A DNA stretch of 37,760 nucleotides from Thermoplasmatota archaeon (GCA_016930135.1 JAFGHM010000036.1:1-37760); one strand, 5' to 3'; counted from the first letter of the stretch, positions 10,689 to 28,764 are shown. The notes: generated by a model not told the origin, from the letters alone. Numbers and translations are program-made.

Positions 10689-10707
10689 TTGGCTCGGGGG
10701 GACCTGA

Positions 10708-11661
10708 ATGGATTTCGATGTGCCGAAGGAGCGGTTTGCTGGTAAGATCAGAGAGGTTGTGATAGGCGCGACAAAGGAGAAGGGCGGGACCCGAGGTTCC
10801 AGCATCGTCGTCGGGGGGTCCGACGGTTTTCCCTTCCACAGGTTCGAGAGCCAGATGCCGCACATGCCGGTCGTGGTCATGGATGTGGTGGACACCCCCA
10901 GGCTCGTCCCCGAGACGCTGCTCGGCTCCATGGGCTCGTTCGTCAAGGAGCCCGTCGAATGGGCCAAGAAGTGCGAGAACGAATGGAAGGCGGACGCCCT
11001 CCTGCTGAGGCTCGCCTCGGCGAACCCGGAGGAAGAGAACAGGTCGGTAGAGGAGTGCGAGTCCCTCTTCAAGGAGGTGCTGAAATCCGTTTCGTTGCCG
11101 ATGCTCGTCTACGGCTGCGGGTCCGAGGAGAAGGACGCGAAGCTGATGGAGGCCGTGTCGAACGCCGGCAAGGGCGAGAGGCTCTTCCTGGGCCTCGCCG
11201 AGGAGAAGGCCTTCAAGTCGCTGGCGGCGGCCTCGATGGCGAACGGACACGGCATAGTCGCTTTCTCCAACCTCGACATCAACCTGGCCAAGCAGATGAA
11301 CATACTCCTGCTCGACTTCGGCGTGAAACCGGAGAACATCATCATCGACCCTCTCATGGCTGCGCTGGGCATGGGCCTCGAGTATTCATATTCCGTCGTC
11401 GAGCGGCTCAGGCAGGGGGCGCTCTCTGGCGACCCCGTCCTTCAGATGCCCATCATATGCGACAGCTCGTGCGCATGGAACGTGCCCGACATACTGGAGG
11501 AGGATCCGAAGAAGGGCGACATCCTCCAGAGGGGGATCCTCTGGGAGGCGATTACGGCCTACGGCGCGATCGTCGCAGGCGCGGATCTCGTCATCATGAG
11601 ACATCCGGATGCGGTCGCGCTCTTCAGGCAGACGCTCAATGAACTGACAGGAGGGGGATGA
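10708..11661 (+). CDS. acsD: Corrinoid iron-sulfur protein small subunit AcsD (CdhD homologue)
   Basis: 317 residues with a TIM-barrel pattern and the family's usual length (about 310-325). Segments typical of the family are the opening that leads to SSIVVGG, the region MPHMPVVVMDVVDTP, the strand NIIIDPLMAALGMGLEYS, and the late CDSSCAWN. AcsD pairs with AcsC to bind the cobamide that carries the methyl group between methyl-pterin (via AcsE) and the A-cluster of AcsB. The ATG at 10708 follows GGGGGGA at good spacing, 19 bases after the fusion gene's stop. Its stop overlaps the acsC start as ATGA, so acsAB, acsD and acsC are one operon. The sequence resembles the bacterial AcsD more than the archaeal CdhD in context, but this was not tested by phylogeny. 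Confidence 0.9.
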   Translation: MDFDVPKERFAGKIREVVIGATKEKGGTRGSSIVVGGSDGFPFHRFESQMPHMPVVVMDVVDTPRLVPETLLGSMGSFVKEPVEWAKKCENEWKADALLLRLASANPEEENRSVEECESLFKEVLKSVSLPMLVYGCGSEEKDAKLMEAVSNAGKGERLFLGLAEEKAFKSLAAASMANGHGIVAFSNLDINLAKQMNILLLDFGVKPENIIIDPLMAALGMGLEYSYSVVERLRQGALSGDPVLQMPIICDSSCAWNVPDILEEDPKKGDILQRGILWEAITAYGAIVAGADLVIMRHPDAVALFRQTLNELTGGG

Positions 11662-12992
11662 CCTTGCCGACAGCGATGGAGATTTACAAGCTGCTGCCCA
11701 GGAAGAACTGCGGGGAGTGCAAGTTCCCGACATGCCTCGCCTTCGCCATGCAGTTGGCGAACCAGAAGGTGGCACTTGAGGCATGTCCGTATGTCACTCC
11801 AGAGGCCAAGGCGATCCTGGAGGAGAGCGGCGCGCCGCCAGTGAAGCTGGTCACATTCGGCTGGAGCGGCTCGCCCGCGAAGATCGGGGACGAGACCCAG
11901 CTCTTCAGGCACGACAAGACCTTCTACCATCCGACGGTGCTCGGGGTCATAGCCGACGACTCCGAAGGGCTCGAGAAGATGAAGGCCAAGATGCAGGATG
12001 CGAAGGCCACATACTACGAGCGTGTCGGCCAGATCATCAGGGTAGATTCCGTCGCGGTGAGGCACTCGAAGGGCAGCCCGGAGGACTTCATCGAGGGCGC
12101 GAAGTACGCCTCGACCTTGATCGTCCCTGTCGTGCTGATGACCGAGGACCCGAAGCTGATGTCCGAGGCCGCGGGCGCTTGCGCTCAGGCGAGGCCCTTG
12201 CTCTACAGGGCCACGCAGGAGAACTTCGACGCCATGGTGCAGGTCGCGAAGGCCAGCGGCTTCCCGCTCGTCGTCGGCGGAGCGGATGACATGGGCAAGC
12301 TCGCCGAGCTGGCGGACAAGGCGAAGAAGGCGGGCGTATCGGACATCGTTCTCGAACCCAAGGGGTCATCTGCAGGCCGCATGCTCGAGCAGATGACGAT
12401 CATCAGGCGCGCGGCAATCAAGAAGAAGTTCCGCCCCCTCGGATACCCGACGATAGCGGTCCTTGGCAGCTCCAAGGAGGACAAGATGAAGGCCGCTCTC
12501 GGGGTCATGAAGTACTGCTCAGTGGTGCTCATGGACCAGATGCCCCCGGAGTTCGTGTATCCGCTCATGACTCTCAGGCAGAACATATTCACGGATCCGC
12601 AGGTGCCGATACAGGTCAAGGCGGGCCTGTACTCAGTTGGCGAGCCGGGACCGAAATCGCCAGTGCTGCTCACCACGAACTTCTCGCTCACCTACTTCAC
12701 GGTCCGCGCGGATATCGAGAAGAGCAAGATACCTGTATGGCTTCTCGTGGTGAACACGGATGGCCAGTCCGTCATGACCGCCTTCGCCGCGGGCAAGCTG
12801 ACGCCGGAGTCCGTCGCCGCACTGATCGAGTCAGAGAAGGTCAAGGAGAAGAGCACGAGGAACGAGATAGTCATCCCGGGCATGATCACCAGGATGAGCG
12901 GGAAGCTCAACGAGCTGACGGACATGAAGGTGGTCGTGGGCCCGAGGGAGTCATCGGGCCTCCCGAAGATGCTGAAGTCGATCGCAGCTTGA
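11658..12992 (+). CDS. acsC: Corrinoid iron-sulfur protein large subunit AcsC (CdhE homologue)
   Basis: 444 residues, matching the 440-450 of AcsC. The N-terminal [4Fe-4S] motif is Cys18, Cys21, Cys26 and Cys43 (start of motif CGECKFPTC), the spacing known for CoFeSP large subunits, where the cluster reduces inactive Co(II) to Co(I). A central TIM barrel and a C-terminal cobalamin-binding domain follow; the C-terminal part contains PVLLTTNFSLTYF and the late glycine-rich segment expected there. Overlaps acsD by four bases (ATGA) with GGAGGGGG as ribosome-binding site. Its stop is separated by two bases from the stop of the convergent second cooC. Acts in the cytoplasm with AcsD, AcsE, AcsV and the fused CODH/ACS. 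Confidence 0.93.
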   Translation: MTLPTAMEIYKLLPRKNCGECKFPTCLAFAMQLANQKVALEACPYVTPEAKAILEESGAPPVKLVTFGWSGSPAKIGDETQLFRHDKTFYHPTVLGVIADDSEGLEKMKAKMQDAKATYYERVGQIIRVDSVAVRHSKGSPEDFIEGAKYASTLIVPVVLMTEDPKLMSEAAGACAQARPLLYRATQENFDAMVQVAKASGFPLVVGGADDMGKLAELADKAKKAGVSDIVLEPKGSSAGRMLEQMTIIRRAAIKKKFRPLGYPTIAVLGSSKEDKMKAALGVMKYCSVVLMDQMPPEFVYPLMTLRQNIFTDPQVPIQVKAGLYSVGEPGPKSPVLLTTNFSLTYFTVRADIEKSKIPVWLLVVNTDGQSVMTAFAAGKLTPESVAALIESEKVKEKSTRNEIVIPGMITRMSGKLNELTDMKVVVGPRESSGLPKMLKSIAA

Positions 12993-12994
12993 GC

Positions 12995-13753
12995 TCAGCC
13001 CCGGAGCCTCTCAGACTCGACCGCCTTCGCGACATCCGAGAACGTGGGGTCCGTCCTGGGGACGTCCGCCAGCGACTCGGTCTCCTCGGCCCTGGAGAGC
13101 ATCATGCCCGACCTGCGCACCCCGTAGACCGCATGGAACCCCTCAAGGCTGCTCACGGGCGGGCCCGAAGCTCCCGGATCGAGCGAGTTGAACACGAGGG
13201 CCTTGCGGGATATCTGGAGCTTCATCTCGTCCGCAAGCTGGGATATCCGCCGTGCGGCCGACTGTGAGCTCTTTGTTCGGTCGCACAGCACGAACAGCAC
13301 GTCGGACGCCCTCGTGGTACGCCTGCTCAGGTGCTCCATCCCGGCCTCGTTGTCTATCACCACGTACCTGTACTTCGTCGATAGGGAGTCGATTATGGTC
13401 CTCAGCAGGTTGTTCACGTAGCAGTAGCAGCCCGGGCCCTCCTGCCTCCCCATGGTCAGCAGGTCGAAGCCGGACCCCTCCGTTATGGCGAGGCGTATCT
13501 GATAGTCCATGTGCTCCTGCTTGGACACCCCCGGGGGCAGCTCCTCCTCGCTGCGCGCCAGCAGCTCCTCGCGTATGCCGCCCAGAGTCCTTGAAGGCTC
13601 AGTGCCGAGCTTGGTTCCGAGGTTCGCGTTGGGGTCGGCATCGACGGCGAGAACAACCTCCTTCGTGGATTCGTGCAGGTGCCGCACTGCGAGCGCGGCA
13701 AAGGTGGTCTTGCCAACCCCGCCCTTGCCTGCCACGGCCAGTGTGAGGGTCAC
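12995..13753 (-). CDS. cooC: Second CooC/AcsF-type nickel-insertion ATPase
   Basis: 252 residues. Deviant Walker A GKGGVGKTT at 9-17, VDADPNANLG at 38-46, and a nickel-binding Cys-x-Cys at Cys109/Cys111 in GCYCYVNN, followed by the Walker B-like VVIDNEAGMEHLSR. This set defines the CooC/AcsF branch of MinD-like ATPases that load nickel into CODH or ACS. The gene starts with GTG overlapping the acsV stop as GTGA, so the two are translationally coupled. Compared with the first CooC (5366-6163), it keeps the canonical VDADPNANLG and EAGMEHLSR motifs more closely, which fits the AcsF-like branch serving the acetyl-CoA synthase; this division of labour is a guess. Convergent with acsC. Confidence 0.9.
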   Translation of the reverse strand: MTLTLAVAGKGGVGKTTFAALAVRHLHESTKEVVLAVDADPNANLGTKLGTEPSRTLGGIREELLARSEEELPPGVSKQEHMDYQIRLAITEGSGFDLLTMGRQEGPGCYCYVNNLLRTIIDSLSTKYRYVVIDNEAGMEHLSRRTTRASDVLFVLCDRTKSSQSAARRISQLADEMKLQISRKALVFNSLDPGASGPPVSSLEGFHAVYGVRRSGMMLSRAEETESLADVPRTDPTFSDVAKAVESERLRG

Positions 13754-15651
13754 GCTTTACCCCCGGAGCCCCCGACGCTCGGGAACTTGCTTGTATCAGT
13801 ATGCGGCAGGAAGAGCGAAGACGAGAACTCGTCATAGAACTCGTTGTCCACGCTCAGCTCCAGATACGTCATCCTCTCGAAGATGTCCTCGGCCTCCTTC
13901 CTTCGCTTCTTCGAGAGCAGCGCAAGCCTCGCCCCGCCGAGCGCGCCATTGCCGATGAACCTGTACTTCTTCCTCGGCAGGTCGGGGAACATCCCGATCG
14001 AGATGGCCCGTTCGATGTCCAGGTGGTATCCGAACCCTCCGGCTATGAAGACCCTCGAGAGGTCTTCGAGCGACTCGCCCGTCTTCCTGAGCAGGACCGC
14101 GCAAGCGCCGTATATGGCGGCCTTAGTCCGGATCAGGTTCTGCAGGTCCGCATCGGTGATAACCATGTCCGCGGCCCCGCCGCCCCCGAGCTTCGGACCC
14201 CGCTCGACTACGAATTCGAGGCCGGACTCCGACGGCCTCGTCCTGCCATCGCCGAGCTCCTGGATCCTCGCCTTCCTGTCGATGATTCCGTGCGTGAACA
14301 TCTCCGATATGAGGTCTATCAGCCCGGAGCCGCAGATGCCGAGGGGAGCCCCATCTCCAATCACATGGTAGGAGGTTGATAGGTCGTCGTTGATCCTCAT
14401 GCGGTCGATTGCTCCTTCCATCGCCCTCATGCCGCAGGACACCTCCGCCCCCTCGAACGCCGGCCCGGCGGAGCAGGAGCACGCCATCATCCATTCCTTT
14501 CCCCCGAGGACCACCTCTCCGTTCGTCCCCACATCGATTAGGAGCGAGAGATTCTTCGACCTGTGCATGCCGCTCGCCAGGACGTCCGCGACAATGTCCC
14601 CGCCGACATAGCCCGCGCGAGACGGGAACAGCAGCACCTTCCCCGCCGGGTTCATAAGCAGGCTCAGGTCTCCTGCGCTCTGCTGGGGCAGATGATGGGC
14701 GACCGGGACATACGGCTCGAGGCGCACATGATTGGTTGACAGGCCAGCGAAGAAGTGAGTCATCACCGTGTTGCCCGCGACTGATGCCGAACAGATGTCC
14801 CTCGCTGGAATCTCCACTCCTGACCTTGCGGATTCCCCGGCCAGGAGGGATGCGATGCAGGAGTTGATAGTCTCCTTTGCCAGGGACGAGAGCTCCTCTA
14901 CTCCCTTCTCCTCGCTGTGCATCATCCGTGCTATGACGTCCTCCCCCCTCGAGATCTGCCTGTTGTAGTCGGAGGCGGTTCCGAGCACCTTGCCCGAGAG
15001 CAGGTCCACGAGTTCGACGACGACCGTGGTGGTGCCTATGTCTACTGCGATGCCCAGGAGCCTGCTGCGAGTATCGCCCGGGTCCACCCTGACTATCTCG
15101 GGCTCCCCGGAGAGCCCAGAAAGAGTGATGGTGACCTTCCATCCGCCCTTCCTGATGGCATCAGGGAGCTCTCTTAGAGCCTCGAGCGTAACGGAGAGCG
15201 AGCGCTTTCCCAGAGTCCGCATCAGCCTTTCCATGTCTGCGGTGTTGTCGGCCAGCGTCGCCTCGGGCACCTCTACGAACACTTTGCTGCTCCACGGAGT
15301 GATTGGCTCAGGGACCTCCTCAACGGTGGTTGTCAGTATCTGGTGCCTGGTGAGCCTGGAGCGGGGAAGCACATGCACCCTCACGTCGCCCTGCGGCTTC
15401 GCCAGGCAGGCCAGCACGATCCCCTCCCTCCTCTCTGACTCCGTCAGGAGAGCGCTCTCGTCGGCTGAGTAGGAGCCTGTGATCCTTACCTTGCACCTGC
15501 CGCACTTGCCCTTGCCGTCGCATACGGAATCGATTGGTATCCCGGCTGCCTGACAGGCATCAAGTACCGTCGACCCTTCAGCGACAACGACTTCCCTCCG
15601 GTCTGGCGCGAAGACGACCTTGTAGCCCCTCCTAGCCAACTCCCCTGCCAT
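13750..15651 (-). CDS. acsV: Reductive activator of the corrinoid iron-sulfur protein (AcsV/RACo)
   Basis: 633 residues, the usual AcsV length. The N-terminal [2Fe-2S] ferredoxin-like domain has Cys44, Cys50, Cys53 and Cys82 (CDGKGKCGRC). A linker and middle domain follow, then an ASKHA-type ATPase domain from about 210, recognisable from GIAVDIGTTTVVVELVD, SVAGNTVMTHFF and LLIDVGTNGEVVLG, as in the RamA/RACo family (COG3894, DUF4445). It uses ATP to drive reduction of Co(II) in the corrinoid protein back to Co(I) when it becomes oxidised. Located back-to-back with acsE and coupled to the second cooC by a GTGA overlap. Its ATG at 15651 lies about 33-42 bases from a TATA-like GCTTTTTAGAC on this strand. 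Confidence 0.92.
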   Translation of the reverse strand: MAGELARRGYKVVFAPDRREVVVAEGSTVLDACQAAGIPIDSVCDGKGKCGRCKVRITGSYSADESALLTESERREGIVLACLAKPQGDVRVHVLPRSRLTRHQILTTTVEEVPEPITPWSSKVFVEVPEATLADNTADMERLMRTLGKRSLSVTLEALRELPDAIRKGGWKVTITLSGLSGEPEIVRVDPGDTRSRLLGIAVDIGTTTVVVELVDLLSGKVLGTASDYNRQISRGEDVIARMMHSEEKGVEELSSLAKETINSCIASLLAGESARSGVEIPARDICSASVAGNTVMTHFFAGLSTNHVRLEPYVPVAHHLPQQSAGDLSLLMNPAGKVLLFPSRAGYVGGDIVADVLASGMHRSKNLSLLIDVGTNGEVVLGGKEWMMACSCSAGPAFEGAEVSCGMRAMEGAIDRMRINDDLSTSYHVIGDGAPLGICGSGLIDLISEMFTHGIIDRKARIQELGDGRTRPSESGLEFVVERGPKLGGGGAADMVITDADLQNLIRTKAAIYGACAVLLRKTGESLEDLSRVFIAGGFGYHLDIERAISIGMFPDLPRKKYRFIGNGALGGARLALLSKKRRKEAEDIFERMTYLELSVDNEFYDEFSSSLFLPHTDTSKFPSVGGSGGKA

Positions 15652-15683
15652 CTGTTATCAATCGCGTGTGAACGAGGTGCGTG

Positions 15684-15694
15684 TCTAAAAAGCA
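15684..15694 (-). promoter_or_regulatory. TATA-like box in the acsV/acsE divergent region
   Basis: On the minus strand the element reads TGCTTTTTAGA; it sits 33-43 bases before the acsV ATG, giving a transcript with almost no leader. On the plus strand the same bases read CTAAAAAGC and lie about 100 bases before the acsE start, so it might serve either direction. The 142-base divergent gap also has an eight-base palindrome CAGGCCTG at 15718-15725. Prediction only. Confidence 0.45.
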
Positions 15695-15793
15695 TTGCGT
15701 ATTGGAACAGACATTGTCAGGCCTGAACATGGCCGAGCAATTCATATCCGATGAAGATAGTATGCCCCACACCCAGGGGGGAAGTATACGATT

Positions 15794-16564
15794 GTGGTGG
15801 GAGAGCGAATAAACGGCCAGTTTCCGCAGGTTTCTAAGGCCATCGACGCAAGGGATGCCAAGTTCATACAGGACCTCGCTCTGGAGCAGATACGAGGGGG
15901 GGCTACGGTCCTCGATATCAACACTGGCCCCGGGAGGGACGACGGGCCAGAGGCCATGGCCTGGCTGGTAAAGGCCGTCCAGGACGTTGCGGACGTCCAG
16001 CTTTCCATAGACTCCCCCGGGCTGAAGGTGCAGCAGGCGGGCCTGGCCTCCTGCAAGAAGGACCCACTGATAAACTCAACGACCGCGGAGCAGAAGCGCA
16101 TGGAGAAGTTCTTCCCGCTCGCGGCGGAGCACAACGCTGAGATAGTCTGCCTGACGATAGATGAGAAGGGCATACCCAACTCAGTCGAGGGCAGGACTGA
16201 GATAGCCATGACGCTCCTGGCCAATGCCATGGACAAGGGCATACCCCCGGAGAAGGTGTACCTGGACCCGGTCGTCCTGCCCATATCCGCCACTCAGGAT
16301 CAGTGTCCGATCCTCTGCGAGGCCCTGACGAACTTCAGGGCCCTCAACACTCCGCCTCCGAAGACGATAGTCGGCCTGAGCAACGTGTCGAGCGGGGCTG
16401 AGGAGCGCAGCCTGCTTAACAGGACTTACCTCGCGATGCTCCTCGGACGCGGCCTGGACGCTGCAATAGTCGACCCGAACGACGAGGAGCTCATGAAGGT
16501 GGTCAAGGCTGCCGAGGTACTCCTGAACCAGAAGCTCTACGCCAATTCTTTCCTCAGAGCTTGA
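15794..16564 (+). CDS. acsE: Methyl-pterin:corrinoid iron-sulfur protein methyltransferase AcsE
   Basis: 256 residues (family about 260). It opens with VGERINGQF, the hallmark of pterin-binding MeTr proteins, and forms a TIM barrel that transfers the methyl group of methyltetrahydrofolate (or an archaeal pterin) to Co(I) of AcsCD. Seen conserved elements are LDINTGPG with Asp41 at the pterin site, SIDSPG, LDPVVLP, and GLSNVSSG with Asn197, corresponding to the catalytic Asn of Moorella MeTr. The start is one of two consecutive GTG codons (15794 or 15797) behind AGGGGGGAAG. AcsE is a bacterial-pathway component; archaeal CODH/ACS complexes normally lack it. A DUF3786 gene begins within its stop codon. 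Confidence 0.93.
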   Translation: MVGERINGQFPQVSKAIDARDAKFIQDLALEQIRGGATVLDINTGPGRDDGPEAMAWLVKAVQDVADVQLSIDSPGLKVQQAGLASCKKDPLINSTTAEQKRMEKFFPLAAEHNAEIVCLTIDEKGIPNSVEGRTEIAMTLLANAMDKGIPPEKVYLDPVVLPISATQDQCPILCEALTNFRALNTPPPKTIVGLSNVSSGAEERSLLNRTYLAMLLGRGLDAAIVDPNDEELMKVVKAAEVLLNQKLYANSFLRA

Positions 16565-17205
16565 GCTCGGGGGCGCCTTGCTTGGAACCCAAGAAGTCAG
16601 CCAACCTCGAGCCTCTGAGGGGCGCATGGGAGAGGGCGGCCTACCTGAACCCGAAGCACCTCTCGGAGACGCTGGACCTCTCCATGGTGCCCGGGACTAA
16701 GAAGCCGATTCTGCGGGTGATGGACAAGGACTGCTCTGTCGACTTCGAGTCGAGGACCATGAAGTATCTCGGCCCTGGAGACCAAGAGGTCCCACCCCAT
16801 CTGCAGATCCTCGCGCTGCACTATTTGGAGGGTGCGGGGAAGGCGCAGCTGGCCAACAGGCTGGTCACCTTCCGAGACTTCGAGGGAGGCGCCATCTACT
16901 ATCCGGCGTTCAAGGCCAGGACGATTGACGTCATAGTCAAGGAGTTCGGGGACAAGCCGGAGCTGCTGAGGCGCATAGGAGAGGCCATGAGGAGTGAGCT
17001 GGTCGATTTGGGCTCGGTCGGGTTCAAGGTGAACTTCTTCCCCCGGATGCCCGTGGTCGTCGTGCTTTGGCTGGGGGACGAAGAGGTCCCCGCGGCGGCC
17101 AACATGCTCTTCGATTCGAATGCGGGAAAGGTCCTGCCCACAGAAGACATATCTATCATGGGCGGCGCCCTGACGAGAAGGCTGGTGAAGCTCGCGAGGG
17201 CCTAG
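16561..17205 (+). CDS. DUF3786 protein coupled to acsE
   Basis: 214 residues. The central region (PPHLQILALHYLEGAG, then LVTFRDFEGGAIYYPAF, and a late LWLGDEEVPAAANMLFD) is the pattern I associate with DUF3786 proteins, which occur with corrinoid and acetyl-CoA pathway genes in anaerobes. Biochemical function is unknown. There is no signal peptide, membrane segment or metal-binding cysteine cluster. The frame begins at TTG 16561 overlapping the acsE stop as TTGA; a second TTG seven codons later (16582) is an alternative. Tight coupling suggests a joint role with AcsE, perhaps in methyl-pterin or corrinoid handling, but nothing in the sequence shows a reaction. Confidence 0.7.
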   Translation: MSSGAPCLEPKKSANLEPLRGAWERAAYLNPKHLSETLDLSMVPGTKKPILRVMDKDCSVDFESRTMKYLGPGDQEVPPHLQILALHYLEGAGKAQLANRLVTFRDFEGGAIYYPAFKARTIDVIVKEFGDKPELLRRIGEAMRSELVDLGSVGFKVNFFPRMPVVVVLWLGDEEVPAAANMLFDSNAGKVLPTEDISIMGGALTRRLVKLARA

Positions 17206-20359: not shown

Positions 20360-21298
20360 TTACCCTTTTCGCTCAACCTCTGGGGCCGCCGGGATCCTGG
20401 TGCCCTCTTGGCTGCTCCTCCTGGTCCACCTGAGCAGGAGCACGCCCACGAAGACGAGTCCCACGCCAATCCCTTGAAGGAGCGTTATCACATCTGAGAG
20501 CACAAGGGCCGCGATGACGACTGCGGCGACCGGCTCTATGCTTGCCACTATGCTAGCCCTGCTCGCCTCTATGTGCCTCAGCGCGACCATCGACACGACG
20601 AACCCTATCGTGCCCGGAAAGAGCCCGATGGCGAATATGTACGCCCATGCCTCGTACGAGATATGGTTGTCGAGGATTGTCATCGGGTTCGCTATCAGCA
20701 CGATCCCCGGGATCGAGAGCGCGGTCATGTAGAGTATCACCGTGTTGGCCGAGTACCTGTCAAGGAACTTCTTCCCCCAGATGTAGTACACTGCGGCCGC
20801 GATTGCAGTGTACACCCCTAGACCTATGCCGAGGAGGTCGAAAGAGAACCCCTCTTCCAGGTCCGCCGCGCCCGCGACCAGCACGCAGCCCGCGAAGGTG
20901 AGGGGGAGGGCCAACGCCTTTCCACGCGTGAGCTTCTCCCCGAGCAGGAAGACGGAAGCAATGGTCACCATGCTCGGGTAGGCATACAGCAGCACGACAG
21001 CTGTGGCAACCCCGGTGAGGTCGACGCACATGTACCAAGCAACTGCGAAGAAGGTGCCGGTGATGAGGCTGAAGCCCAGCATCGGCAGAAAATCCTTCCT
21101 TCTCAGGCGGAGCGACTTCGGGTCGAACACGCCGATCGCGGGGAGCAGTATCAACGTGGTGACGACAGATGCAAAGAGCGTGACCTGCATCACCTCCGCC
21201 CCGGAGTCGATGGCCAGGACAGTGAAGGTGCCCGAACTGGCCCACATGATTGCGGCCAGGGCCATGAGTCCGTACGCGATGTTCTTCGAGATATTCAC
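20360..21298 (-). CDS. EamA/DMT-superfamily transporter (tandem paralogue)
   Basis: About 312 residues in ten hydrophobic helices with two EamA repeats: first-helix AAIMWASSGTFTVLA, LLYAYPSMVTIASVFLLGE, and ASIVASIEPVAAVVIAALVLSD. The open frame extends to 21382, but its first 28 residues are polar and have no counterpart in the paralogue. Starting at the GTG (21298) gives MNISKNIAYGLM, aligning with MRISVNAAYALM of the neighbouring transporter, so that start is preferred. Probably arose with its neighbour by tandem duplication; the two keep similar lengths but have diverged in sequence, suggesting separate substrates. A basic tail (RRSSQEGTR...) ends the protein. Confidence 0.85.
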   Translation of the reverse strand: MNISKNIAYGLMALAAIMWASSGTFTVLAIDSGAEVMQVTLFASVVTTLILLPAIGVFDPKSLRLRRKDFLPMLGFSLITGTFFAVAWYMCVDLTGVATAVVLLYAYPSMVTIASVFLLGEKLTRGKALALPLTFAGCVLVAGAADLEEGFSFDLLGIGLGVYTAIAAAVYYIWGKKFLDRYSANTVILYMTALSIPGIVLIANPMTILDNHISYEAWAYIFAIGLFPGTIGFVVSMVALRHIEASRASIVASIEPVAAVVIAALVLSDVITLLQGIGVGLVFVGVLLLRWTRRSSQEGTRIPAAPEVERKG

Positions 21299-21391
21299 AG
21301 CAGATGCCCTCGTGCCAGCCGATGGGGATATCGGAGAGCCCTTCATGAACCTATGTTTCTCTATGGGCTGTCCACCGGTCACCGAGGCGAC

Positions 21392-22624
21392 CTAGCCGAC
21401 CCGCCTTTCTCTTCCGGGGCCTATGGCAATCAGCATCACGAGCGCAGCCAGCGACATCGCAATGCCATACGCGAATGTGGCCCACGGACCAACCGAGTCC
21501 CACAGGAAGCCGGCGATGACGCTGCCGGGCAGCATGACCAGCCCGGCGCAAGTGTGGAATGCACCAAGCGCCGTCCCTCTTGTGTGTTTTGGGACGAAGT
21601 CAGTTACATACGCCTTGAGAACGCCCTCGGAAGATCCTTTGTACGCGCCGTAGATGACGAACCCGAATAGCAGGGCATAGACGGTCTCTGCGTAGGCCAT
21701 CACTGCGCAGGTGACTGCCAGCAGAGCGAATGACGTTGCGATGATGGGCCTCCTTCCCACCCGGTCCGATAGGGTTCCCGCAGGCATCGATATCATGAAG
21801 AAGACTATGTTGAAGATGACGTACAGGATTATCGTGATAGCGGATTCTATGCCTGCATCGCTCGCCTTGAGGATGAGGAAGGCGACGTTGATCTCCCCTA
21901 TGTAGAAGGTGACGATTATCAGCATCAGCCGTCGGAACGACTTGTCGAGCGCCCTTATCTCCCTGAAGAACCGACCCGTTCTTGCTCTGGTCGCCGTTGC
22001 CTCAACTTCCTTGACGAATAGGATTATGACTGCGACGGCCGCGACCGCGGGGATCGTGGACCACAGGAACACCTCGCGGTAGGTATCCTCTGTTACTGCG
22101 GCCGCCGCCAGGAGTATGGGAAGCACGAGCAGAGGCCCAATCACAGCCCCGGCAGAGTCAAGGGCCTTGTGCAATCCGTAGGCCTTGCCTCGCATCCCCT
22201 CTTCACTCGAGTCTGCTATCAGCGCATCTCTGGGAGCGCTCCTGACGCCCTTTCCGACCCTCTCCGCTACTCTTACTCCGAGCACGTGCCAAGGCGAGGT
22301 CGCCAGATAGAAGAGAGGCTTGGCTAGGGCGCTTGCGCTGTAGCCGCTGAGTATGAACGGCTTCCTCCTCCGGTATCTGTCCGAATACCATCCAGAGAAG
22401 ACCTTGAGAAGGGATGCGGTGGTCTCCGCAGCCCCCTCTATCAAGCCAATTAGGAGCGCGGAAGACCCGATGGCAACAAGGAAGTAGGGCATGATTGGAT
22501 AGATCATCTCGCTGCTCATGTCGGTGAGGAAGCTCACGATCCCCAGCACGAGGACGTTCGTGCTGATGCCCGCGAGGATCCGTCTCCTCTTGGCCCGAAC
22601 GGCTCCGCCTTCTGCCTGCTCCAT
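21392..22624 (-). CDS. Major facilitator superfamily transporter
   Basis: 410 residues and about twelve hydrophobic helices. The MFS loop 2-3 signature appears as GWYSDRYRRRKP, its half-repeat in loop 8-9 as GTLSDRVGRRP, and motif RVAERVGKGVRSAPRDALIA is typical of the MFS branch often annotated as drug or metabolite efflux. A central cytoplasmic basic loop (about 195-215) divides the halves. The substrate is not predictable. Start ATG 22624; a TATA-like element at 22675-22686 lies about 55 bases upstream on this strand. It is the first gene of a run with the two EamA transporters and the KaiC-like protein, all on the minus strand. Confidence 0.88.
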   Translation of the reverse strand: MEQAEGGAVRAKRRRILAGISTNVLVLGIVSFLTDMSSEMIYPIMPYFLVAIGSSALLIGLIEGAAETTASLLKVFSGWYSDRYRRRKPFILSGYSASALAKPLFYLATSPWHVLGVRVAERVGKGVRSAPRDALIADSSEEGMRGKAYGLHKALDSAGAVIGPLLVLPILLAAAAVTEDTYREVFLWSTIPAVAAVAVIILFVKEVEATATRARTGRFFREIRALDKSFRRLMLIIVTFYIGEINVAFLILKASDAGIESAITIILYVIFNIVFFMISMPAGTLSDRVGRRPIIATSFALLAVTCAVMAYAETVYALLFGFVIYGAYKGSSEGVLKAYVTDFVPKHTRGTALGAFHTCAGLVMLPGSVIAGFLWDSVGPWATFAYGIAMSLAALVMLIAIGPGRERRVG

Positions 22625-22686: not shown

Positions 22687-22758
22687 TTCATGTCGATTTC
22701 CGCTGAACTGTACGCGCCATCATTCAATAGGCTGCAGAACATATCTGCGAGCGGGACC

Positions 22759-23610
22759 ATGAGGGCGGTGGGCGAGTTTGTGGACCTGAAGAGCGTGCTG
22801 AAGGAGAGGGCCAGGAAGAAGGGTGCTGTCGTGTTCGGCGTCGTGTCCATCGAGGACGCAAATGCTCTCCCCTCCGTCAAGATCGAGTGGACCATCAACA
22901 GGTGGACCAAGAGGCTGCGCGACTCGATGCCCGAGGCGAGGTCGGTTGTCGTGTTCGGCATACTATCGACTGACGATGCCGATGAGATAGAGATCAGGAG
23001 ATCGGATGGCCGGCTGGACTATCCAGGGTACATGCCCATCAGCATCATCATGCGCGACCTCATGAGGGTGCTCAGGGACTACGGCTTCAGGGCACGCGCT
23101 CCTTCCGTATACGCTTCGTACAAGCGCATCGCGCAACTGGCCGGGATGGGCAGTTACGGGAAGAACGCCTTGATCATTCACCCCAAGTACGGCCCGTGGC
23201 TCAGGTTTGGCGCTGTCCTTACCGATGCACCCCTGCTCCCCGATAGACCGTTCGAGGGTGACCTGTGCGGCAAGTGCGAGAGATGCCTCACGGCTTGTCC
23301 TGCAGACGCCCTTGAACCGTATGTCGTCAATCCGAACAGATGCCTTGTGGGTGTGGCCACGGCCCCGCGCGCCAGACCCGAGCTCAAGCGGCTGCTGCCC
23401 GAGCACTCCCCCGTCCTCACGCCCCAAAGCAGGGTCATGTGCACGGCCTGTCAGCTCGCGTGCAGGTACACAACTGCCGAGCGCAGGCGGAATGTCTTCT
23501 CTCCGGCCAGCACGCGGGCGAGCAAGAGCCGCGGGAAGAAGAAGCCCTCTAGGCCCTCGGAGAGAAGCCCACGGCGGCAACGGCGCTCTCGGAAGGGAAC
23601 TTCTCGATGA
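22759..23610 (+). CDS. QueG/RdhA-like 4Fe-4S protein (putative corrinoid reductase-type)
   Basis: 283 residues from the ATG at 22759. The segment MGSYGKNALIIHPKYGPWLR followed by FGAVLTDAPL is a hallmark shared by epoxyqueuosine reductase (QueG) and reductive-dehalogenase-like proteins. A CxxCxxCxxxCP ferredoxin motif follows at Cys170, Cys173, Cys176 and Cys180, and a second cluster set uses a later Cys plus CTACQLAC. Substrate unknown; true QueG would act on tRNA queuosine, yet the shorter N-domain argues for another role. An ATG at 22690 exists but overlaps the only TATA-like element, so 22759 is preferred. The C-terminal 28 residues are strongly basic (KSRGKKKPSRPS...) and lie antisense to the end of the AsnB-like gene (62-base overlap). 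Confidence 0.72.
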   Translation: MRAVGEFVDLKSVLKERARKKGAVVFGVVSIEDANALPSVKIEWTINRWTKRLRDSMPEARSVVVFGILSTDDADEIEIRRSDGRLDYPGYMPISIIMRDLMRVLRDYGFRARAPSVYASYKRIAQLAGMGSYGKNALIIHPKYGPWLRFGAVLTDAPLLPDRPFEGDLCGKCERCLTACPADALEPYVVNPNRCLVGVATAPRARPELKRLLPEHSPVLTPQSRVMCTACQLACRYTTAERRRNVFSPASTRASKSRGKKKPSRPSERSPRRQRRSRKGTSR

Positions 23611-25021
23611 AATGGCGGTAGTACAGGAGCTCCTCCTTGGTCCTTATCCTGCCTCTCGGGAGCGCCCCCCTCTCCTTCTCGAACTCGGCGTCGGAGATCA
23701 TCTCATCCGCGACTGAGACCAGCGACTGGATGGAGCCCGCACCGTCGCTGAACCGCTGCTTTCTCCTCCATGCTACCGCTGCGGGCAGGGAGTCCTCGAA
23801 GGCCTTCCTCAGCAGCAGCTTGTTCCGCTCCGGCCCAGGGCCTACCAGCTCAGGCGGCTTCAGCGACAATCCGAACTCGATCACATCCCTGCTCATCAGG
23901 GGCATCCGCCCGTCGAGGGACGCGCTGGCGGTCATCCTGTCCACCCTCTGGAAACCGGTCATCCATCCAGTCCTGAGAAGCTTCCTGCGCTCCCTTCTGA
24001 GATCGTCATCGCCCTTGATTGTGCGCATGTAGTCATATCCTGCGAAGATCTCGTCTCCGCCCTCACCACAGAGGGTCACGAGTCGAATGTCGCTGAACAG
24101 GTGTGTAGCCATGTAGTTCGGTATGCAGCTCCTGATTAGTGGATAGTCGAAGCTCTCGGCCGCGTAGACCACATCCTCGAGGACATCGAGCATACCATCG
24201 ATGCCGTAGACCCTCTCCTTGTGGCTCGAGCCTATCCGCTCCGCGACCTTTCGGGCCATGCGCAGGTCCTCGCTCTGCTCGGTGCCCACGCATACGGTCT
24301 GCACCTCATCTGCTGCTTCCGTCGCGGCGGCCGCGATCACGCTGCTGTCTATCCCGCCGCTGAGGAGCACATTGAGTCCCTGCCCTTCTCTCGAACAGCT
24401 CCTCACGCTCCTCAGCACCAGCTCGCGCAACGCGTTCGATTTCGGTTCCGCGCGCGTCCTCCTGACCGGAGATCTCCTCGGCCAGATCGGCGAGAACCCC
24501 TTGCCTGCCACCAGCACCTTGCCCGGGGGGAAGGGCACGAACTCGTCCCCGGCGACCATCTGGGATTTGATCTCGGAGGAGAATGTCCCCTCCCGCGACC
24601 CACCAGAGATGTAGATGGGTTTCAGGCCGTACCTGTCCCTCGCGAGGACCAGCCTCCCGTTGTCTGAAATCGCGATGGCGAAGGCGCCGTCGAGGTAGCC
24701 GAACATCTTCGTGCCGATGGCCTCGTACATGCTTATCAGGAGGTCGGCGTCCCCTGCGTCCTCGTCCGAGTCCTCTAGGAAGAGCTCCTTCAGGAGCTCC
24801 GAGTTGAACAGATAGCAGTCCGAGGCGACGGCTACGCCGTCGTCCTCCACGATCGCCCTCGCAGTCCCCTTTCGAGACGGTCTTGCCCTCCGGGCGGTGA
24901 TCACCAGCCTGTCATCCTCAAGCAAGTCCTTCCTGTCAGGGCCTCTATGGGATATCCTCTCGAGCATGCGCCTTGCCAGTTGTCTGTCGGGTGAGCCATA
25001 TGTGCCTGCGATCCCCTGCAT
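23549..25021 (-). CDS. Asparagine-synthetase-like amidotransferase lacking the catalytic Cys
   Basis: 490 residues. The N-terminal glutaminase-type domain keeps HRGPD (25-29) and RYGLKP (130-135), but position 2, normally the nucleophile Cys (MCGIAG), is Gln (MQGIAG). The FNGEIYN substrate loop is also degraded (VASDCYLFNSEL). Glutamine hydrolysis is therefore very unlikely. The synthetase domain is intact: ATP-pyrophosphatase loop SGGIDSS at 221-227, CGEGGDE at 318-324, and WRRKQRFSDG at 418-427. It could be an ammonia-dependent asparagine synthetase, or an amide/lactam-forming enzyme like beta-lactam synthetase, carbapenam synthetase or lasso-peptide cyclases, which also lost this Cys. It is the last gene of a three-gene operon, 14 bases after the mutase-like gene. 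Confidence 0.85.
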   Translation of the reverse strand: MQGIAGTYGSPDRQLARRMLERISHRGPDRKDLLEDDRLVITARRARPSRKGTARAIVEDDGVAVASDCYLFNSELLKELFLEDSDEDAGDADLLISMYEAIGTKMFGYLDGAFAIAISDNGRLVLARDRYGLKPIYISGGSREGTFSSEIKSQMVAGDEFVPFPPGKVLVAGKGFSPIWPRRSPVRRTRAEPKSNALRELVLRSVRSCSREGQGLNVLLSGGIDSSVIAAAATEAADEVQTVCVGTEQSEDLRMARKVAERIGSSHKERVYGIDGMLDVLEDVVYAAESFDYPLIRSCIPNYMATHLFSDIRLVTLCGEGGDEIFAGYDYMRTIKGDDDLRRERRKLLRTGWMTGFQRVDRMTASASLDGRMPLMSRDVIEFGLSLKPPELVGPGPERNKLLLRKAFEDSLPAAVAWRRKQRFSDGAGSIQSLVSVADEMISDAEFEKERGALPRGRIRTKEELLYYRHFIEKFPSESAVAAVGFSPRA

Positions 25022-25035
25022 TTCAGTCCGCCTCC

Positions 25036-26697
25036 CTATATCTCGGCCAGGTCGAGGTCCTCTTCGCTTGCAGCCAGCCGTGCCACACGGTCCTTCTCGA
25101 GTATCGGGAGGTTAGAGGCCCTGTCCACCACCACGCACGCGCCGTTCACAATCGCGGTGGTGATCGAGCCCAATGCGACCGGATTGCCTTTGAGGTCGGG
25201 GGCGTCCAGGAGCCCACGCTTGACCGCGAGAAAGAGCACTTCGGGCGATGTGAGCGGCTCCTTGACCTGCCTGCTCCCGCCGCGCTTGATGGCCTCTATG
25301 AGGAACTTGGTCTCCTCGAGCAGCTGGGCCTTCCTAGCCGCTATCTTCGGGTCCGCCTCTGGCTTCGGCATGCCTAGCAGGGCCTTGGCCACGGCTCCCT
25401 TGGCTATCTGGCAGCTCTCGATTATGTCAGGAGCGGTCGCGACATGGTCAGCCTCGCTGAAACCCACGACATGCACTATGTGTGGCGACAGCGACATCGC
25501 CGAGTATATCGAGGCCGCGAGCTGCCCCTTCGCCTCGTTCTGCGAGGGCGGCAGGGATGCCAGGCCGGACCTCACCATCCTCACGACCCTGAAGGTTCCA
25601 TCGGCGAGGGATTCGACCAGCTCGAGCTTCGCCAGCATCTTCGCGAGGTCCATAGCAGGCGCGATTCCCCTTGGGGTGTCGAACATGAACTGGCAGACAT
25701 AGTCCCTCACGCCGAACGCACGCGCGTTGTAGGCGGCGACGTACGCCATCGCGAGCTCTATGGTGTCCCCGCAACCCCTGAGGGCCCACTGGTGAGACTC
25801 GTTGATCTCGACCGGGACGTCGTTCTGCGCATACCATCTGATGGCCTCCTGGTTCTCTGCGATCGCCTCCCTCAGCGGGCGCTTCGAACGGCCGTCCAGC
25901 TCGCTGTACCACATGATCGGGACGGCGCCCCAAGCGATATTGATGGTCTCCTTGAGCATCTCCGCCCACTTGATGAGATCTCTAGTGCCACTGTAGCACC
26001 TGAGGAGCGGGTAATTGCCCCTTCTTGTAGCATCCCAGATCACCCTGAGGTCCTCTCGTCTCCTGAAGGGCGCACCCCCGGCGCCGTCCAGCTTCGGGTC
26101 CATTTCGGACGGTCTGAAGAACGACTCCTGCGCGTTCTGGTCAGGTGCAAGGGAAAGTATGTCCAGCGCTCCAGACTCGGCGATCATCCTGGCACCTTCG
26201 ATGGTGTCCTTCATCTTCGGAAGTCCGAAGTGGTGCCTCAACAGTGGGAGCGGGTACGAATTCTTTATTCGATCGACGAGATCCGAGCTCCGGGCCGTCT
26301 CCTCCTTGGGCGGGGGTGCGCCCCGGAGCTTCGCCTTGATCGCCTCGACCGATTCGCTCCCGTCGAAGACAGCTTCGAAGATCCCGCTGTTCCTGGCTAC
26401 GACCGCCACCGGAGCCGTTCCGCCAAAGAGATATCTCCTGCCCTTCAGCCCCTGGTCCTTCTCAAGCTCCAGCTTGAGTTCCCCCAGGAGAGGAGCTGCG
26501 GACTCAGGCGTCAGCCTGTAGCTCACTGCGACGATCTCGGGGTTCTTCAGCTTGATGGCCGACACGAGCTGCCGGATCGGGACCGCGGGGCCCAGCAGCT
26601 CGACCTCGTAGCCCATGCCCTTCGCGAGCTCCAGGAATGAGTTGATCCCCCCGACGTGGACGCAATTGCCTATGGCCGCTCCCAAGATCTTCGTCAG
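25036..26697 (-). CDS. B12-binding domain fused to glutamate-mutase-E-like TIM barrel
   Basis: About 553 residues. Residues 1-125 resemble a cobalamin-binding Rossmann domain: LGAAIGNCVHVGG with His14 at the place of the cobalt-ligating His, IVAVSYRLTPE, and RYLFGGTAPVAVV as the later glycine motif. The rest resembles the TIM barrel of methylaspartate (glutamate) mutase epsilon; order and spacing of the segments around WYAQNDVPVEINESHQWA and of the C-terminal part (KAQLLEETKFLIEAI, RGLLDAPDLKGNP) match what I recall of Clostridium GlmE. It could rearrange a carbon skeleton by adenosylcobalamin radical chemistry; substrate unknown. Frame: no ATG/GTG is available; CTG at 26697 overlaps the upstream stop as CTGA with GAGGGG six bases before it, TTG at 26685 is the alternative. 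Longer N-terminal extensions read as non-coding. Confidence 0.72.
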   Translation of the reverse strand: MTKILGAAIGNCVHVGGINSFLELAKGMGYEVELLGPAVPIRQLVSAIKLKNPEIVAVSYRLTPESAAPLLGELKLELEKDQGLKGRRYLFGGTAPVAVVARNSGIFEAVFDGSESVEAIKAKLRGAPPPKEETARSSDLVDRIKNSYPLPLLRHHFGLPKMKDTIEGARMIAESGALDILSLAPDQNAQESFFRPSEMDPKLDGAGGAPFRRREDLRVIWDATRRGNYPLLRCYSGTRDLIKWAEMLKETINIAWGAVPIMWYSELDGRSKRPLREAIAENQEAIRWYAQNDVPVEINESHQWALRGCGDTIELAMAYVAAYNARAFGVRDYVCQFMFDTPRGIAPAMDLAKMLAKLELVESLADGTFRVVRMVRSGLASLPPSQNEAKGQLAASIYSAMSLSPHIVHVVGFSEADHVATAPDIIESCQIAKGAVAKALLGMPKPEADPKIAARKAQLLEETKFLIEAIKRGGSRQVKEPLTSPEVLFLAVKRGLLDAPDLKGNPVALGSITTAIVNGACVVVDRASNLPILEKDRVARLAASEEDLDLAEI

Positions 26698-27809
26698 CGC
26701 ACGCCCCTCACAGCCAACATCCTGATGTCCTTCACCGACATCCCCGTCAGCCCGACCTTCTCGACAGTCCTGCCTTCGGCCCAGAAGTCGCGACCGTGCA
26801 TGGTGGATGCCATATGGATGAGCATATGAAGAGTGGGTGTCTTGACGCCCGCGAGTCCCGCGACGGACGCGATGGGCACGAGGCTCATCGGGACGTCCTC
26901 GAGGATGTATCTGTGAGTAAGAGTAGCGGGGGCCCTGACGCCCTTGTACCCGGGCGTCGCCTGTATCGCCTCGTAGAGGTTCCTCCCCGGGGAGTCGTAT
27001 GCGAGATAGAGCCATTCCCGCGCGGTATGCAGGTGTATCCCCAGCGCGGCCCCGACGGCCACCCGCTCGGCATCTGCGGATTCGAGAACCCTCGCGGTGG
27101 AGGGCGAAACCCCCTCCAGATAGTACTCGAAGTCGCCGTGGGTGGATTCGATCCTGGCAGCGTTGAGTATGGTGAGCGAAGGATGGAATATTGCACCTAT
27201 GTTGTCCAGGCTCGTCTCCAGGACGTTGCTCGCAGCCACGTACTGCGGGAAGGCCCTTCTCACGACCTCGAGGACCTGCGGTGTCCTGTGGGCGGGGATG
27301 GCCGCGACGGGCACGGAGTTCTTCACCTGGATTATCCTTGCCCGGGCCGGCTCGGCGTGCCTTGACACATAGATGAAGGTCTGCGCCTCAGCGATGACGG
27401 GTCTGGTCTTGATCTTCCTCCGGCGAAGGACATTCAGGAACTCTATCGCCCCGAAGGTCCTGCCCGGGTTGAGTATCACGGTATGCCTGTTGGTGAGGTG
27501 CTGCGCGCAGAGCTCCGCGACATCCCTGTGCCCGGAGGCGGGCACCACAACCATGACGACGTCCGTGCCGTCGAGGACCTCCTCGATGTCGTCAGAGGCC
27601 AGCTCCACCTTGCCGTAGCCCTCTATGACGCCCTCGACATCGACGCCGCCCCTGTCGTTGATGTTGTCTATCTTCTCCCGAGACCTGTTCCAGAGACGGG
27701 TGGGGAACCCCATGATCGCCAAGTGGCCGGCCATGGCCAGGCCTCCGTGTCCCGCTCCAAGGACAGCGAAAGTCGGCCTTGCTTCGCCTCTGGATTTGTG
27801 TGTACGCAA
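26694..27809 (-). CDS. Opine dehydrogenase family (NAD/NADP octopine/nopaline dehydrogenase-like)
   Basis: 371 residues. The N-terminal Rossmann domain has FAVLGAGHGGLAMAGHLA with the GxGxxG-type core at 18-23, LWNRSREKI, and DVVMVVVPASGHRD. The C-terminal helical domain carries NIGAIFHPSLTILNAARIE, the octopine dehydrogenase-family region with the catalytic His (HP). These enzymes reductively join an alpha-keto acid to the amino group of an amino acid to make N-(carboxyalkyl) amino acids; some relatives reduce simple ketones instead. The start is TTG 27809 with GAGGGTG five bases upstream. First gene of an operon followed by the B12/GlmE-like and AsnB-like genes. Divergent from a CBS-domain regulator, so probably under its control. 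Confidence 0.82.
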   Translation of the reverse strand: MRTHKSRGEARPTFAVLGAGHGGLAMAGHLAIMGFPTRLWNRSREKIDNINDRGGVDVEGVIEGYGKVELASDDIEEVLDGTDVVMVVVPASGHRDVAELCAQHLTNRHTVILNPGRTFGAIEFLNVLRRRKIKTRPVIAEAQTFIYVSRHAEPARARIIQVKNSVPVAAIPAHRTPQVLEVVRRAFPQYVAASNVLETSLDNIGAIFHPSLTILNAARIESTHGDFEYYLEGVSPSTARVLESADAERVAVGAALGIHLHTAREWLYLAYDSPGRNLYEAIQATPGYKGVRAPATLTHRYILEDVPMSLVPIASVAGLAGVKTPTLHMLIHMASTMHGRDFWAEGRTVEKVGLTGMSVKDIRMLAVRGVR

Positions 27810-27890: not shown

Positions 27891-27999
27891 TATGACTAAT
27901 TATGATAAATGATGAATAACTATTAAATGGTTGCCGGCGATTATCATCGATGGGACGGCACCGGGGAGAGACCTCTCTGGCGCGACACTCAGTGGTAGC

Positions 28000-28764
28000 A
28001 TGGTGGAGAATGATTCCAGAGATATCGCGAAGTGGATTATCCGGTCCGACAGGCGACTCGTGACGATGAGGTACTTCAAGCACCACAAGTTCGCCGGGGC
28101 ATCCGAGATAGCGCAGGACTCGGGCCGGTCGATACAGAACGTGAGCACGGGCCTCAAGGAGCTTGAGTCGAGGGGCGTGCTGGAACAGCTGGAGCCCGGC
28201 AGGAGGACCTGGAAGAAGCACGCCCTGACGTCCGTCGGGAGGGCGACGCTCGAGATAGTAGAGCGCGAGCTGAGTGCGGGGATGTTCGAGAGGATGGCAG
28301 ACGAGCTCTCCTTCAGGTATGTCCGGGACGCGTTCAGGCTGGTCGTGACCGACCCCATAATCGTCACCCAGCAGATGAACCTCCACGAGGTCGTGGACAG
28401 GGTGCTGGCGGATCCGAGGACCAGGAGCGCGTATGTCGTGGACGATAAGAGGCGTCTGCTCGGCATGATCGGCCTGGAGCAGATGCTGACGGCCATAGAG
28501 AGCTCGCTGTCGCTCTTCGACAAGGAGCGACCTGCCGTCAGGGGCAAGAGGGGCGTCCTGCCATTCTCCGTCGAGGAGTACATGGTCAAGCCTGTCACGG
28601 TATACCAGGACGACAAGCTCATCACTGCTCTGAGCAAGATGATCGAGAACAGCATGGAGGACCTCCCCGTTGTGGACGACGATCGCATCCTCCTCGGCGA
28701 GCTGAACGGGTTCGAGATACTGCTCCTGGGGAGCGAGGTCCTCAGAAGGCATGCGAGGGTCTAG
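28000..28764 (+). CDS. Winged-helix transcription factor with two CBS domains
   Basis: About 254 residues from the ATG at 28000. Residues 5-95 form a winged helix: RLVTMRYFKHHKFAGASEIA, then the recognition helix RSIQNVSTGLKELESRG, and the wing ending KKHALTSVGR. Two CBS domains follow, about 115-180 (VTQQMNLHEVVDRVL.., YVVDDKRRLLGMIGL) and 188-250 (MVKPVTVYQDDKLITALSKM, DLPVVDDDRILLGEL), the adenosyl-ligand-sensing type, so it may respond to AMP/ATP or SAM-like ligands. An upstream in-frame TTG at 27931 would lengthen it but overlaps the AT-rich promoter. It is divergent from the opine/mutase/AsnB-like operon and next to a perfect inverted repeat, and so is the obvious candidate regulator. 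Confidence 0.8.
   Translation: MVENDSRDIAKWIIRSDRRLVTMRYFKHHKFAGASEIAQDSGRSIQNVSTGLKELESRGVLEQLEPGRRTWKKHALTSVGRATLEIVERELSAGMFERMADELSFRYVRDAFRLVVTDPIIVTQQMNLHEVVDRVLADPRTRSAYVVDDKRRLLGMIGLEQMLTAIESSLSLFDKERPAVRGKRGVLPFSVEEYMVKPVTVYQDDKLITALSKMIENSMEDLPVVDDDRILLGELNGFEILLLGSEVLRRHARV

Follow-up and report, generated by a model that had tools for sequence, protein, structure and literature searches.

What might an opine dehydrogenase (ODH), a cobalamin (B12)-binding protein and a relative of asparagine synthetase B (AsnB) accomplish together in one archaeal operon? The question is raised by a 37,760-nucleotide stretch of DNA from a Thermoplasmatota archaeon (GCA_016930135.1, JAFGHM010000036.1:1-37760), here called the window, which is part of a 1.83-Mb archaeal metagenome-assembled genome (MAG; G000, contig 40; 85% complete). 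A first-pass annotation had described three minus-strand genes, joined by a 4-base overlap and a 14-base gap, and had proposed that they could serve a single pathway. Our analysis suggests, with a probability of roughly 0.55, that they form a three-enzyme anabolic cassette for opine coupling, B12-dependent radical rearrangement and ATP-dependent amidation.

A conserved three-gene cassette in archaea and bacteria

We find all three genes as described, adjoining one another on the minus strand:

26694..27809, minus strand: opine dehydrogenase, CENDH-like (371 amino acids, TTG start; PF02317, 3e-48; dyad H209/D305)
25036..26697, minus strand: B12 domain (about residues 1-125) fused to a GlmE-like TIM barrel (about residues 134-538), assigned by PF02310, hhalign and fold match
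23549..25021, minus strand: AsnB-class ATP-dependent amide synthetase (490 amino acids; PF00733, 1.8e-49; NF006949, 322 bits against a cut-off of 499)

The B12 gene has no ATG, GTG or TTG at the homologous start, and alignment to its relatives places the start at CTG 26697, which is probably the start used. It produces a 4-base overlap with the ODH stop codon (CTGA); in several relatives the two genes overlap at the same place, by ATGA or GTGA. An open reading frame finder proposed a longer start within the ODH gene, which can be dismissed because the relatives share the start motif and these overlaps. A 14-base gap separates the B12 gene from the AsnB-like gene and, given the CTG start, the annotated layout is borne out. 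A QueG/reductive-dehalogenase-like Fe-S protein is encoded at 22690-23610 on the plus strand, convergent with the AsnB-like gene, whose 3' end it overlaps by 62 bases; a relative of this gene occupies the same place in locus L045.

The order ODH-B12-AsnB is found in 19 loci and as many genomes, the window included. These come from Thermoplasmata-related archaea, one archaeon of another class and two bacterial phyla, Desantisiibacteriota and Acidobacteriota. They include L008 (the same place as G661), from a genome of the window's own genus, in which the AsnB gene is cut by a contig end, and L009, in which CBS and antiporter genes are inserted between the B12 and AsnB genes. Further loci are cut by contig ends (L046, L054), carry ODH-B12 without AsnB nearby (L055, L057) or have the B12 gene apart and a related AsnB elsewhere in the genome (L058, L059). 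Relatives of the B12 protein are rare but widespread: the window's class has them in 14 of 400 genomes, the Acidobacteriota group in 11 of 297 (five being more distant) and the phylum to which a Desantisbacteria genome belongs in two of two; none was found in the viral contigs searched. Across the 400 class genomes, counting ODH relatives at E<1e-20, there are 15 ODH carriers and 14 B12 carriers, and 13 genomes have both (Fisher p = 1.7e-21). The exceptions are contig-end fragments or a distant ODH (36%). The main groups are largely alike in the ODH, B12 and AsnB trees.

The three genes thus form a conserved cassette and not a chance association, as they keep the same order in 19 loci and as ODH and B12 genes co-occur far above expectation. 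A gene-neighborhood search of this kind had been suggested with the first-pass annotation, and it finds the genes kept together rather than scattered. The conserved synteny and co-occurrence support the view that they serve one pathway. The AsnB-like gene might instead be the organism's plain asparagine synthetase with unrelated neighbors, being the sole full-length AsnB found in several archaeal genomes, but the fixed synteny across phyla and the further AsnB-type genes of the bacterial hosts make this very improbable.

A literature search for opine dehydrogenase, glutamate mutase or B12, and asparagine synthetase together returned nothing relevant, most subscription journals falling outside the search; the annotation's remark that no described pathway has this combination holds for the literature covered. 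All three enzymes belong to known superfamilies or are related to them; the mutase family and the pathway appear to be undescribed.

The dehydrogenase is expected to form an opine

Both the Rossmann domain (PF01210) and the octopine dehydrogenase helical domain (PF02317, 3e-48) are matched in the window ODH. The closest solved structure is that of Arthrobacter N-(1-D-carboxyethyl)-L-norvaline dehydrogenase (CENDH, 1bg6), matched across residues 12-364 at E=7e-76; octopine dehydrogenase ranks much lower. His202 and Asp297, the proposed catalytic pair of CENDH, align with His209 and Asp305 of the window protein and are kept in all 18 aligned cassettes. Opine formation is therefore the expected chemistry, given the family, the full-length CENDH match and the catalytic dyad, in line with the family assignment of the first-pass annotation. 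The window enzyme differs from CENDH in being only distantly identical to it and in having a B12 enzyme and a synthetase as cassette partners. In a distant cassette (L056:10680-12299), an N-terminal phosphotransferase system EIIA-2 domain (PF00359) is fused to ODH.

A predicted B12-dependent mutase with a remodeled substrate site

Residues 1-109 of the B12 protein match the B12-binding domain (PF02310). The axial histidine (His12) is invariant in 24 of 24 relatives; 20 of these have CxHxxG at the site of the DxHxxG motif, which itself is present in the four distant members. The domain resembles those of the MttC/MtgC type and is similar to that of OraE (8e-7). Sequence-only Pfam and PDB searches with the window protein missed the barrel, which we recognized via relatives, profile comparison and a fold model. 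PF06368 is matched in three of eight relatives, one of them at the cut-off (G257, 26.6 bits), and hhalign aligns 347 columns with a profile of seven GlmE proteins (E=6e-7, probability 92%). The AlphaFold model (mean pLDDT 77, calculated from a shallow alignment of five sequences) has GlmE as its best fold match (1cb7_B; Z 31.6, 347 residues, r.m.s.d. 2.9 Å), followed by the ornithine and lysine aminomutases (Z 27.6-25.9), with pterin-binding (DHPS) barrels at about 15. As modeled, the barrel has the GlmE fold and belongs to the same superfamily, with the B12 domain ahead of the barrel. The annotated fusion of a B12 domain to a GlmE-like barrel is in agreement with the axial histidine and the modeled fold; corrinoid binding, judged through motif and fold, is consistent with both, and neither points to its absence.

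In glutamate mutase an arginine claw formed by Arg66, Arg100 and Arg149 holds glutamate (PMC10947579). The corresponding residues in the window protein are His154, Gln188 (by ungapped alignment) and Tyr233, which are invariant in 24 of 24 relatives, whereas the arginines are kept in six to seven of seven true GlmEs. Arg152 and Arg231, each two residues ahead of a replaced claw position on its strand, are new invariant arginines at sites that are glutamines in GlmE, and they could hold a dicarboxylate or a similar substrate. Glu330 and Lys326 are invariant in the GlmE set; in all 24 relatives the former is kept as Glu413 and the latter is replaced by Val409. Glu295, the probable equivalent of Glu214, is likewise present in 24 of 24.

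Together with the modeled fold, these residues lead us to infer an adenosylcobalamin (AdoCbl)-type mutase of a new family, which would not depend on pyridoxal phosphate (PLP) and would act on a substrate other than glutamate, since the claw arginines are replaced. The window protein shares the barrel fold, the B12 domain with its axial histidine and Glu330 with glutamate mutase (GlmE + GlmS) of C. cochlearium, but its B12 domain is fused to the barrel N-terminus, and claw and Lys326 are replaced. A glutamate-mutase pathway, leading from glutamate via 3-methylaspartate to 3-methylasparagine or a methylaspartate-derived opine, would account for the GlmE homology of the barrel. The replaced claw and the lack of a recognized methylaspartate ammonia-lyase or GlmL gene beside the cassettes leave it little likelihood, and the synthesis of 3-methylaspartate or another branched amino acid envisaged in the first-pass annotation is not supported. 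A different GlmE neighborhood is seen in Streptomyces (L067:3474-5287), where a GlmS/GlmE-like pair occurs with a DMT transporter, an aspartate kinase and a semialdehyde dehydrogenase.

Ornithine 4,5-aminomutase and lysine 5,6-aminomutase resemble the window protein in fold (Z 26-28) and, for OraE, in the B12 domain; the domain order is opposite to that of OraE. We tried and ruled out a PLP-dependent aminomutase, as the PLP-lysine segment of OraE corresponds to a gap in the alignment to 3kow. The B12 protein could also be a corrinoid methyltransferase using methyl-cobalt chemistry, tied to a carbon monoxide dehydrogenase/acetyl-CoA synthase (CODH/ACS) cluster 10 kb away: CODH/ACS, an AcsE-like methyltransferase and an AcsV corrinoid activator are encoded at 6552-16564 of the window, and its B12 domain is of the MttC/MtgC-like kind noted above. 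We consider this improbable, as the barrel matches AdoCbl mutases with Z 26-32 and pterin-binding barrels with about 15, the Glu330 equivalent is invariant and no CODH/ACS gene was recognized among the listed neighbors of the bacterial cassettes.

The AsnB-like enzyme: amidation or ring closure?

The window AsnB-like protein begins M-Q-G-I-A-G where AsnB has M-C-G, so that the nucleophile Cys2 is replaced by glutamine, as the first-pass annotation had noticed. The glutamine-binding motifs are also lost (no RLSI; SDCYLFN in place of NGEIYN). The synthetase (ATP-pyrophosphatase) site is intact, with SGGIDSS, GEGGDE, IRS and WRRKQRFSDG, and cassette AsnBs in general keep SGGxDSS (with few one-residue variants), GEGxDE, V/I/F-R-S and K-x-K/R-F. 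The proteins lacking both the cysteine and the glutamine-binding motifs form one clade of 13 (support 99/97). The cysteine and all glutaminase motifs are retained in L049 and in five Acidobacteriota (L010, L051-L054), and the L010 protein, with a score of 530.9, clears the cut-off of 499 set by NCBI for the AsnB equivalog. Both kinds of AsnB are accompanied by orthologous ODH and B12 genes. The simplest history suggested by these sequences is a single loss of the glutaminase from a glutamine-dependent amide synthetase that would now use ammonia.

Compared with E. coli AsnB (1ct9), the window clade thus has the synthetase motifs and lacks Cys2 and the glutamine-binding motifs; the cassette family has Q-R-x-D-R in place of A-R-A-N-K. 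In two acidobacterial-group loci (L115:4679-9998, L116:4882-10201), a Cys-less AsnB overlaps a caprolactamase/5-oxoprolinase-like subunit pair, away from the mutase gene.

β-Lactam and carbapenam synthetases are AsnB relatives without the N-terminal cysteine too, and the Cys-less enzyme might by analogy be an intramolecular amide (lactam) synthetase that cyclizes a rearranged opine. The loss of Cys2 and the glutamine-binding motifs, the secondary amine borne by opines and the overlap with a caprolactamase/5-oxoprolinase-like pair just described, which is seen in the two distant genomes G489 and G449, would fit such a role. The window protein, however, does not have the Tyr348/Glu382 catalytic dyad of β-lactam synthetase, these positions being Glu, as in AsnB, and Arg; E. 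coli AsnB is the closest match to its synthetase domain (1.7e-49 versus 1.4e-20), and a complete glutaminase occurs in cassettes with the same partners. We regard lactam formation as unlikely. Since the dyad is absent and same-partner cassettes, namely those of Acidobacteriota, carry a complete AsnB, ring closure is not indicated, and amidation with ammonia is the most probable last step; of the two outcomes that the first-pass annotation left open, amidation is favored and cyclization is not supported.

Neighboring genes and the possible product

The genes flanking the cassette differ between lineages. The following were located in the window and in two acidobacterial loci, transport roles being suggested by association:

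27931..28764, plus strand (divergent): helix-turn-helix (HTH) and two-CBS protein, candidate regulator of the cassette (PF00571, 4e-13)
21392..22624, minus strand: MFS transporter, possible exporter (PF07690)
20360..21382, minus strand: EamA-type transporter, possible exporter or importer of the product (PF00892)
L051:9023-11344 and L052:11314-13659: MarC and DUF389 membrane proteins after the cassette

Five loci of the window's family (window, L008, L040, L044, L047; 69-71% identical) have the HTH-CBS gene oriented divergently to the cassette. The cassette is followed by EamA transporters in the window, L007 (from the complete genome CP070748.1), L043 and L045, and by MFS transporters in the window and L045. 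CBS and Na+/H+ antiporter genes are found inside the operon in L009 and L055, the latter followed by an MscS channel gene, which in that MAG is broken across two reading frames. Two antiporters are encoded in L040, a CLC channel in L010, a cation P-type ATPase in L041 and a Na+/alanine symporter in L058/L059. A DUF389 protein is encoded near the cassette in four Acidobacteriota, two of them with MarC. These neighbors hint, tentatively, at a compatible solute as the product.

An exported opine metallophore or signal, comparable to staphylopine and released by the EamA and MFS proteins, would be in keeping with an ODH followed by DMT/MFS transporters in the window, L007, L043 and L045. This is an unlikely product, as no nicotianamine-synthase-like or racemase gene was recognized beside the cassettes read, and as the transporters are conserved only within one archaeal family, whereas other lineages have antiporters or DUF389.

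In the CODH/ACS region of the window, a 1378-residue chain (6552-10688, plus strand) combines CODH (Prismane, residues 64-631) with a complete acetyl-CoA synthase (CODH_A_N, CdhC, ACS C-terminal), and two CdhD-like subunits follow this fused chain in the archaeal MAG. A CooC-like ATPase, an AcsV-type corrinoid activator (RACo), an AcsE-like methyltransferase and a DUF3786 protein are encoded at 12995-17205. The last two of these genes have relatives close to the cassette in L007 and L043.

A proposed pathway

In the three-enzyme pathway that we propose, the ODH would reductively couple a 2-oxo acid and an amino acid to an N-(carboxyalkyl) amino acid (an iminodicarboxylate). The B12 protein would bind AdoCbl His-on at its N-terminal domain, as motif and fold suggest, and its GlmE-fold barrel would perform a radical 1,2-rearrangement on a non-glutamate substrate, before or after the coupling. 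The rearrangement could act on the opine or on the amino acid that the ODH consumes; the opine is a plausible candidate by analogy, because in it, as in glutamate, three atoms lie between the two carboxylates. The AsnB-like enzyme would then adenylate a carboxylate with ATP and amidate it, probably taking nitrogen from glutamine in the Cys-bearing lineages and, in the lineage without the cysteine, to which the window belongs, from ammonia that is either free or delivered in some other way. The neutral or zwitterionic product would most likely be a small metabolite kept in the cell or moved across its membrane, a compatible solute being the leading guess. More speculative still is the full scenario, in which an undescribed B12 radical family rearranges an opine that is then amidated at the expense of ATP, yielding a new class of compatible solutes common to archaea and bacteria.

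Several points weigh against the proposed pathway. Substrates, product and activities are predictions from the genes. The claw was mapped by profile alignment, in which the Arg100 position is ambiguous, and the model has low confidence at residues 184-208 and 262-268. A PduO-type cobalamin adenosyltransferase was found in five of 23 cassette genomes and not in that of the window, which is 85% complete (other types were not searched). The Cys-less AsnBs beside caprolactamase-like genes in two genomes could point to lactam chemistry. Lastly, the neighbors vary between lineages, and they are given here as occurrences rather than enrichments.

To our knowledge, few reactions of AdoCbl mutases have been described, and a conserved cassette with a remodeled mutase substrate site probably marks another one. 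The single loss of the glutaminase by an AsnB within a fixed pathway separates 'Cys-less' from 'ring-forming'. As the cassette is small and self-contained and has the same partners in unrelated phyla, it should be possible to express and assay it as a unit.

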